From assembly GCF_017302275.1 (NCBI RefSeq), contig NZ_JAFLDR010000040.1, forward strand, positions 1 through 34,467: a DNA stretch of 34,467 bases. The letters run 5' to 3'. The notes beneath the pieces are model-generated. The model searched no databases and was not told the origin of the DNA. It was given only the letters and a program-made list of their open reading frames with translations. Each line of letters opens with the position of its first letter. Within the stretch, counting starts at the first letter, position 1. Shown here one piece after another: positions 31,204 to 34,467 of the stretch. The position numbers and the translations under genes are program-made. Origin of the DNA: Sulfuritalea sp. (lineage in GTDB: Bacteria > Pseudomonadota > Gammaproteobacteria > Burkholderiales > Rhodocyclaceae).

Positions 31204-33405
<2,202 letters not shown>

Positions 33406-33433
33406 GGACCATGAATCTGACCAAACCCCATTG

Positions 33434-33509
33434 CCGTCATTCCGGCGAACGCCGGAATCCAGTGGGTTGCACCGGCGCTTCCTGGATTCCGGCGTGCGCC
33501 GGAATGACA
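33434..33509. repeat. left pair of inverted palindromic repeats
   Basis: Two 27-bp units in opposite orientation: 33436-33462 and 33482-33508, identical when inverted except for one base. Each is itself a palindrome, ATTCCGGCG-N2-CGCCGGAAT, flanked by GTC on one side and CCAG on the other. A 19-bp spacer separates them. This GTCATTCC...GGAATCCAG type is a well-known dispersed repeat in proteobacteria. Confidence 0.88.
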
Positions 33510-33514
33510 AGAAT

Positions 33515-33802
33515 TCAAACGATCTCGCCGTACAAATCCCGCCAAGTCGGGTTGGTCGCCTCGATCAAGTCCAGCTTCCATGTACGACGCCAGCCCTTGA
33601 GCGCTTTCTCACGCGCAATGGCCGATTCCATCGTCTCGTGCGCCTCGTACCAGACCAGCGTATGAACCCCGAATTTCTTGGTGAAGCCTTCCACGAGATC
33701 GTTCTTGTGTTGCCACACGCGCTGCACAAGATTGGACGTCACTCCGACATACAGCGTGCCGTTTCGTTGGCTGGCGAGGATGTAGACGCTGGGTCGTTTC
33801 AT
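33515..33802 (-). CDS. GIY-YIG family endonuclease, YhbQ-like
   Basis: A 95-residue single-domain nuclease. SVYILASQRNGTLYVGVTSN carries the two short strands of the GIY-YIG signature (YIL and YVG). LVQRVWQHKNDL and FTKKFGVHTLVWYE follow with the catalytic Arg/His region. ESAIAREKALKGWRR holds the metal-binding Glu. ATG 33802 starts the domain exactly; the upstream in-frame extension only translates repeat DNA. It runs opposite to the secretion operon and is tightly flanked by palindromic repeats on both sides. Biological roles of solitary GIY-YIG proteins vary (repair, mobile DNA); here the context suggests association with the repeats. Confidence 0.88.
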   Translation of the reverse strand: MKRPSVYILASQRNGTLYVGVTSNLVQRVWQHKNDLVEGFTKKFGVHTLVWYEAHETMESAIAREKALKGWRRTWKLDLIEATNPTWRDLYGEIV

Positions 33803-33814
33803 TGGGGTAGCGTA

Positions 33815-33939
33815 CTGGATTCCTGCGTGCGGCGGAATGACGGCGCCAACCCCGTCATTCCGGGCAAGCGCAGCGCGACCCGGAATCCAGGAGCGGCGCC
33901 GGATATCGCTCTGGATTCCGGCGTTCGCCGGGATGACGG
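33815..33939. repeat. right cluster of three palindromic repeats
   Basis: Three units of the same family as the left pair: 33815-33841 (inverted orientation, two arm mismatches), 33854-33890 (direct orientation, with a longer loop between ATTCCGGG and CCCGGAAT), and 33911-33937 (inverted). A fragment GCGCCGGAATCAC lies at 33952-33964, just before the HlyD gene. Units alternate in orientation, so neighbours can pair as larger hairpins. Confidence 0.85.
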
Positions 33940-33978
33940 CTGGGGACGCCTGCGCCGGAATCACGGGAGAACGTACTC

Positions 33979-34467
33979 ATGACCCACGCCCTCACCCTCC
34001 GCCTGCAAGCCACGCGCGACCTGCTCAAACGCTACGCCGCCGTCTTCAGCCACGTCTGGAAAATCCGCAGGGAGCTCGACCCGCCGCAGCGCCTGCCGCA
34101 CGAGGCGCAATTCCTCCCGGCCGCGCTCGAACTGCAGGAAACCCCGGTCTCGCCCGCGCCACGCATCGTCGCCTGGCTGCTGATGGCGTTTGCATCGATC
34201 GCGGTGTTGTGGGCCATCTTCGGCCACATCGACGTGGTCGCCACGGCGCAAGGGCGCATCGTGCCCAATGCCGGCAGCAAGCTGATCCAGCCGATCGAGA
34301 CCGCCACCGTCAAGGCCATCCACGTCGTGGACGGCCAGGCCGTCAAGGCCGGCCAGGTGCTGGTCGAACTCGACGCCACCATGGCCCGGGCCGACAGCAC
34401 GCGCACCGCCAACGTCCTCACTACCGCCCGGCTGCAGGCCGCCCGCGCCCGGGCGCTGCTCGCCGGG
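33979..34467 (+). CDS. HlyD-family type I secretion membrane fusion protein, 3' truncated by the window
   Basis: The first 163 residues of the periplasmic adaptor that links the ABC exporter to an outer-membrane channel. After a cytoplasmic N-terminus (1-55), one membrane span (about 56-76, IVAWLLMAFASIAVLWAIFG) leads to the family opening IDVVATAQGRIVPNAGSKLI. QPIETATVKAIHVVDGQAVK and VLVELDAT then form the biotinyl-lipoyl-like hairpin. The coiled coil begins at about residue 135. ATG 33979 has GGGAGAAC upstream, supplied by the end of the repeat module. It is the natural partner of the ABC gene. Confidence 0.92.
   Translation, partial: MTHALTLRLQATRDLLKRYAAVFSHVWKIRRELDPPQRLPHEAQFLPAALELQETPVSPAPRIVAWLLMAFASIAVLWAIFGHIDVVATAQGRIVPNAGSKLIQPIETATVKAIHVVDGQAVKAGQVLVELDATMARADSTRTANVLTTARLQAARARALLAG

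Follow-up and report, generated by a model that had tools for sequence, protein, structure and literature searches.

A stand-alone GIY-YIG nuclease gene and the CGTC-type REP hairpins beside it probably form a nuclease-plus-target cassette, a cognate pair of enzyme and repeat that has been mobile over evolutionary time, as judged from sequence comparison. The gene lies in the window, which is the whole stretch of 34,467 nucleotides from Sulfuritalea sp. that was analysed. The original prediction of a GIY-YIG gene with flanking palindromes between the ABC and HlyD genes of a type I secretion operon was confirmed, with a protein of 95 amino acids and five hairpin units (Table 1). The units had been placed 10–15 bp from both gene ends, which is correct on the start side (12 bp); on the stop side the nearest unit is slightly closer (6 bp). 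The nuclease gene sits between two genes and within neither, the same ABC gene precedes the same HlyD-type gene in relatives, and an empty allele exists in the genus. Possible overlapping open reading frames apart, it was the single gene identified between ABC and HlyD, and the module, being shorter than 600 bp, leaves little room for a transposase. Biotin_lipoyl_2 was the only Pfam match of the downstream HlyD-type protein. The ATG shortly after the ABC stop codon is possibly a vestige or a duplication of the hlyD start.

Table 1. Features of the ABC-HlyD region in the window.
Feature	Coordinates	Strand	Basis
ABC transporter with N-terminal C39 peptidase domain (type I secretion)	31204..33405	+	Pfam PF00664, PF00005, PF03412
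ATG 5 nt past the ABC stop codon, where hlyD starts in empty alleles	33411..33413	+	Comparison with empty alleles L027 and L028
CGTC-type REP unit 1	33436..33462	+	
CGTC-type REP unit 2, inverted pair with unit 1	33482..33508	-	
Stand-alone GIY-YIG nuclease gene (type 1), 95 aa	33515..33802	-	PF01541
CGTC-type REP unit 3, 12 bp upstream of the GIY-YIG start codon	33815..33841	-	
Unit 4, long-loop variant, 37 nt	33854..33890	+	
CGTC-type REP unit 5, one mismatch	33911..33937	-	
Degenerate half unit after unit 5	33948-33964		
hlyD-type membrane fusion protein gene, start only (runs off the window)	33979..34467	+	Biotin_lipoyl_2 match

The layout had been likened to that of REP sequences with RAYT transposases, with a different class of enzyme, and this description held: the sole Pfam match of the nuclease gene was the GIY-YIG domain PF01541 (62.2 bits, cut-off 22.6), and not the HUH tyrosine transposase of RAYT/REPtron systems. 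As in the GIY-YIG superfamily, Y7, Y18, G20, R28, E65, and N84 were invariant among 11 aligned sequences, and the conserved tyrosines, arginine, glutamate, and asparagine presumably have catalytic roles. Among solved structures, the sole sensible match was UPF0213 protein BH0048 (E 0.0012); six matches to WD-40 and designed WRAP-T repeat-protein structures (best E 1.7e-9) were discarded as spurious, with no single stretch above the cut-off. A PHROGs search with the nuclease gave no match, and NCBIfam gave nothing beyond a sub-threshold group I intron endonuclease match. A reading as a defence gene was rejected, as PADLOC returned just weak PDC-S14 matches (E 0.0008 and 0.0024). Three further GIY-YIG matches are present in the genome of the window; in a loose scan allowing 1 mismatch, no unit core was found around two of them and one imperfect unit-core match was found at the third (L003). 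The best-placed named relative of the nuclease among the best 80 of 573 was from Propionivibrio (76% identity), and a homologue in N. gonorrhoeae (L128, 65% identity) lies amid the same GTCATTCC..GGAATC units.

The CGTC REPs have been described as having a CGTC or TGTC tag, an 8-bp stem starting with A-T pairs, a 4-nt loop, and a CCA tail (Di Nocera et al., 2013; PMC3733652). The units of the window, laid out as GTCAT-stem-loop-stem-ATCCAG, fit the CGTC-1 description of that paper, and the tag, the 8-bp stem, the 4-nt loop, and a CCA-type tail were found both in them and in the units of the 80 loci considered below. The strict motif occurred 2 times in the window against 0.00 expected from shuffles. 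The many dispersed copies that characterize CGTC REPs are also present, since a looser motif with 1 mismatch had 34 matches in the whole genome and the reversed control pattern had 0; 4 of the 34 fall inside this half-kilobase module. Units 1 and 2, the left pair, fold together as a single long hairpin in DNA (-34.9 kcal/mol, z -8.7). A long-loop unit (GTCATTCCGGGC..GACCCGGAATCCAG) stands beside the nuclease in three genomes (window 33854-33890, L008, and L011), and a longer inverted repeat (GGCGTTGTTGAATAAATAACCATGGAACACC and its partner) was noticed by eye outside the REP units at L153 in genome G185.

Across 76 distinct units of 27 nt, the GTC tag and the CCAG tail were nearly constant, with the last G in 63 of the 76. 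Stem pair 6/21 altered on both arms together (T-A, A-T, C-G), as did stem pair 9/18 (G-C, C-G, T-A, A-T), and sliding one arm of the stem abolished this compensatory pairing. Because a unit needed at least 7 matching stem pairs out of 8 to be selected, the share of paired positions is inflated, and it is the variety of pairs alone that carries information.

The association of nuclease and repeat was examined at the best 80 of 573 confirmed nuclease relatives in named genomes (about 60–76% identity), and the rates therefore hold for close relatives. These 80 loci, three of them with short flanks, span the Gamma-, Beta-, and Alphaproteobacteria and several other phyla, and the control segments were taken from the same loci as the nuclease genes. 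The left and right 200-bp flanks had an exact word of at least 12 letters in common at 65 of 80 loci, whereas such a word was shared in 15 of 542 control segments. The enrichment of the nuclease beside the repeat that had been anticipated proved strong and extends across phyla, with a strict unit within 250 bp at 67/80 loci and 6/453 controls, and strict units on both sides at 49/80 and 1/453; at 13 of the 80 loci no strict unit was found within 250 bp. The nearest units formed an inward-pointing inverted pair in 31 of the 49 two-sided loci, the other arrangements accounting for 8, 6, and 4. Within the genus, type-1 nucleases number 8 copies in 7 of 31 genomes, and the loose scan found units beside 7 of the 8; the eighth, the second copy of G003 (L023), was outside the scanned range and has two units in the looser-motif listing.

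The kind of repeat also follows the kind of enzyme. The inner stem letters 9-10 of the unit nearest the gene were GG or CG in 62 of 67 loci and GA or TG in 5. Mapped on the nuclease tree of these 67 loci, which is short (95 columns, 36 of 64 inner branches open), these letters required 9 changes against 25.2 after shuffling. The same tendency was seen within the Gammaproteobacteria (27 loci; 5 changes against 9.2, with 1 of 500 shuffles as low), within the Betaproteobacteria (19 loci; 3 against 7.7, no shuffle as low), and among the 16 loci unassigned to Pseudomonadota (3 against 6.8, 1 of 500 shuffles as low). Clustering was less sharp for the outer stem letters 6-8 (13 changes against 19.2). 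Organism class required 32 changes on the same tree, the phylum being used as the label where a class was unnamed and rows with neither being excluded. The stem type thus tracks the nuclease tree while that tree crosses bacterial classes, which suggests that enzyme and repeat move together; on the evidence of these trees, the repeat type goes with the enzyme and not with the host.

The number of units in a genome was likewise related to the presence of the enzyme. In a class sample of 185 genomes, 39 had a type-1 relative at E 1e-15, and at least 15 unit matches were found in 12 of these 39 and in 11 of the 146 without the nuclease (p = 4e-4), with a cut-off picked after the counts were seen and counts that include some chance matches. 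A rank test on all counts gave medians of 9 with and 4 without the nuclease (p = 0.023), and in the genus the medians were 23 in 7 genomes with and 2.5 in 24 genomes without it (p = 0.004); all these statistics ignore kinship and genome incompleteness. Unit-rich genomes with no nuclease detected were found as well (G019 with 80 units, G020 with 40, G160 with 101, and G158 with 71), so the repeats can persist or spread without the enzyme, or the gene was lost or went unassembled. The enzyme is not always needed for the persistence of units.

A second pair of nuclease and palindrome was found. The type-2 GIY-YIG clade is about one third identical to type 1, and its flanking palindrome reads, by eye, CCGTTCG..TGAG..TCGA..CGAACGG. 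The word CCGTTCG or CGAACGG was found within 300 bp at 12 of 12 type-2 loci of at least 60% identity, 5 of them from this genus, against 18 of 136 controls, and on both sides at 8 of the 12 against 0 of 136 control segments. At the two type-2 query loci below 46% identity no such word was found within 300 bp. The type-2 word stood on both sides of the type-1 gene at 0 of 80 loci and on one side at 4, and the type-1 unit was within 300 bp of 0 of 14 type-2 query matches; the two kinds of repeat are unmixed beside the genes. Type 2 occurs in 5 of 31 genomes of the genus, with one copy in each and 4 of the 5 copies at the ABC-HlyD junction, and in the class it was found in 5 of 185 genomes at E 1e-20. 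The window itself carries a type-2 palindrome at 160-200 (CCGTTCGCCCTGAGCC..), though its genome is without a type-2 GIY-YIG at E 1e-12. At L033, L034, L135, and L136, the type-2 nuclease frame continues through the repeats, which thereby encode C-terminal tails such as RPEPVEG and VVRQAHHER.

The junction between ABC and HlyD is a slot used by several cassettes. We read 20 such junctions from the close ABC homologues among the 31 genus genomes; homologues of about 33–42% identity were set aside, the close homologues of G023 and G024, ending at or near contig edges, were left out, and the junction of G021, whose ABC gene likewise stops at a contig edge, was read from a separate contig (L009) with the last 66 ABC residues. 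The empty site expected in relatives was found at 5 of the 20. Six held HicBA alone, three type-1 GIY-YIG alone (the window, G008, and G028), and three type-2 GIY-YIG alone; HicBA was combined with type 1 in two (G003, where only HicB was matched, and G021) and with type 2 in one (G022). In four of the empty junctions the gap was at most 11 bp or the genes overlapped; in the fifth (G007) the ABC gene is 66–71% identical and the HlyD start was roughly placed. HicA and HicB were confirmed by Pfam at L031, and the other junctions were assigned by tblastn. An antisense HicBA toxin-antitoxin pair between ABC and HlyD was observed at L026, L030, L031, L038, L040, L049, and L168. Orientation was uniform within each kind of cargo: type 1 ran against the operon in 5/5, type 2 with it in 4/4, and HicBA against it in 9/9.

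Several observations bear on how the slot was filled. The type-1 gene is on the ABC side of HicB in G003 and on the HlyD side of HicBA in G021, which suggests at least two separate entries. Two operon copies with different contents occur in G011 (empty; HicBA) and in G005 (type 2; HicBA), and G030 has HicBA at one copy and nothing beside a more distant copy. The second copy of G005 (L168, 1540-1565) has a lone type-1 REP unit between ABC and hicB with no nuclease, which suggests either a solo unit or a remnant of a cassette. Mapped on a tree of the ABC genes from 19 of the 20 junctions (the second G005 copy was left out), cargo state required 12 changes against 11.97 after shuffling, which is no better than chance; the resolution of this tree is poor (8 of 16 inner branches open), so such turnover counts are rough. 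In 14 of 14 cargo-bearing alleles examined, an ATG stands 3–13 nt past the ABC stop codon, where the empty alleles start hlyD, and this suggests insertion at the hlyD start codon, perhaps with duplication of the target site; it falls short of proof, as finding an ATG within so few nucleotides is not unusual and the alleles share a common ancestry.

Five of the eight type-1 copies of the genus are at this junction, and a tree of the genus type-1 genes did not tell slot and non-slot copies apart. A general preference for type I secretion was not supported, as the other genus copies adjoin different genes: the type-1 copy of G023 lies by MltA-like and ammonium-transporter-like ORFs, that of G011 by a P-type-ATPase-like ORF, and the type-2 copy of G026 near an L21-like ORF, all named by eye. 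A possible exception is the second G003 copy, near the start of a different ABC gene.

Signs of movement were found in two genomes. G185, of the same class, has five type-1 copies, three of which are alike at three loci (95.6, 96.1, and 88.2% in pairwise alignments), and the flanks of these loci otherwise share just further dispersed repeat pieces. Downstream of the stop codon, the likeness of the three copies extends to about 7 nt beyond the next unit. Each of them has an upstream unit 170–240 nt before a common gene marker, and just two of the three are alike between this unit and the gene. The right edge thus fits a REP-bounded cassette, as far as these alignments indicate, and the left edge is ambiguous. 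In G117, three decayed cassettes (L157, L158, and L159) are 99% identical and miss the N-terminal part of the gene; the larger element around them carries terminal inverted repeats of its own (by eye), the right one being absent from one copy. This larger element is likely a miniature transposon, and movement there may be passive, by another element. The proposal that the nuclease travels with its own repeats gains support from the three similar copies in G185 together with the co-variation of stem type and enzyme.

Other explanations must be weighed against this one. If the repeats were mere transcription terminators or RNA stabilizers, their nearness to the gene would be incidental; the units are indeed hairpins, and one follows the stop codon directly in 10 of the 58 loci with a downstream unit. 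The enrichment is two-sided, sequence-specific, and follows the enzyme clade, while control segments from the same loci are mostly without units, and on this two-sided and clade-specific pattern the terminator or RNA-only reading was ruled out, its residual probability being very small. It is also improbable that the module owes its presence simply to a permissive gap at the ABC-HlyD junction, the nuclease itself being immaterial: the same junction does accommodate HicBA and the second GIY-YIG clade, and this would explain the place but not the pairing with repeats that is independent of the genome.

Two further readings assign an active part to the enzyme. As an autonomous REP transposon, the nuclease would cut and paste or copy the units and the cassette, in a role like that of RAYT for GTAG REPs. 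This reading would suit the inverted units that point inward on either side of the gene, the stop in likeness of the G185 copies at the downstream unit, the greater number of units where the enzyme is present, and the report that CGTC REPs apparently have no dedicated transposase (PMC3733652); a target duplication is conjectural, however, the left end in G185 is ambiguous, and unit-rich genomes without the gene exist. We consider such a transposon doubtful and are similarly disinclined to believe that the enzyme itself drives the movement. GIY-YIG enzymes hydrolyse DNA and are not known to rejoin it. A reading with a probability somewhat below even is that of a DNA-uptake modulator of the Ssn type, which would nick incoming single-stranded DNA at the repeats, with recombination during transformation spreading the repeats and not the enzyme. 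The homologue of 65% identity in N. gonorrhoeae amid the same repeats speaks for it, as does the reported work on Ssn in Neisseria, but alone it leaves the joint movement of stem type and enzyme across classes and the copies at three loci in G185 unexplained, unless transformation carries the whole cassette.

Considering the above results, we favor the nuclease-plus-target cassette and propose a model for it. The GIY-YIG enzyme would most likely recognize the CGTC-type REP hairpin as single-stranded DNA, binding and nicking it when the strand is single, as in replication or uptake. Repair or recombination with other copies could then spread the units and, at times, the whole cassette, which might be carried to new places with the outer REP units possibly serving as ends or recombination points. 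In this genus, the cassette would have entered the ABC-hlyD junction of type I secretion, a slot that other cassettes also use, and enzyme and repeat type would be inherited and transferred together. We infer with good support from the comparisons that the nuclease recognizes the repeat as its target; hairpin binding and nicking, a restriction to single strands, the precise limits of the cassette, and the route of insertion are presumed. The binding and nicking step was proposed because of the co-variation and the reported biochemistry of relatives, and the spreading step because of the distribution. A far wider generalization, which we put forward as a rather unlikely but possible one, is that GIY-YIG nucleases serve as the dedicated enzymes so far missing for CGTC REPs and for at least one further family of palindromes (CCGTTCG..CGAACGG), that each makes up with its hairpin a cassette spreading itself and its repeats between phyla without a transposase, by the nicking of exposed hairpins followed by repair or recombination, and that cassettes and toxin-antitoxin pairs are swapped in small gaps within operons, such as ABC-HlyD, that act as exchange slots.

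A companion nuclease that tracks the stem type would be a direct and testable answer for the CGTC REPs left without an enzyme in 2013. The two main stem types (GG and CG) provide a ready specificity-swap comparison, and the genus-wide slot, with its empty, HicBA, type-1, and type-2 alleles, provides natural before-and-after pairs for the entry and exit of cassettes.

CGTC REPs are known across many bacterial phyla, with Neisseria among the carriers (PMC3733652). They apparently have no dedicated transposase (PMC3733652), whereas a GIY-YIG gene is their regular companion here. The present arrangement shares with REP/RAYT systems an enzyme gene flanked by its presumed target palindrome and dispersed genomic copies of the latter, but a tyrosine transposase and a GTAG tag are replaced by a GIY-YIG nuclease and a CGTC tag. 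As with the free-standing GIY-YIG homing endonucleases of phages, a small and mobile GIY-YIG gene is present in some alleles and absent from others; here, in contrast, there is no intron and no known adjacent cut-site allele, and the target is presumably a palindrome that occurs dispersed and also brackets the gene. We take the closest known system of the nuclease to be the Ssn single-strand nuclease family of Neisseria. A paper of 2025 reportedly described the Ssn family as site-specific GIY-YIG enzymes that cleave single strands at the NTS repeats of Neisseria, and many homologues are said to exist, each with its own target sequences, so that the enzyme family probably already has described biochemistry. 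What is shared with Ssn is a GIY-YIG protein that is small and stands alone, together with a cognate palindromic repeat near its gene, a trait found at 67 of the 80 loci (best 80 of 573), whereas here the cassette occupies a slot in a secretion operon that in other alleles is empty or carries different cargo. A literature search of partial coverage found no paper linking GIY-YIG enzymes with REPs, and the pairing of nuclease and repeat may largely be in print already. As far as we can tell, the exchange slot, the test of co-inheritance, the repeated copies, and the second palindrome are additions to what is known of these systems.
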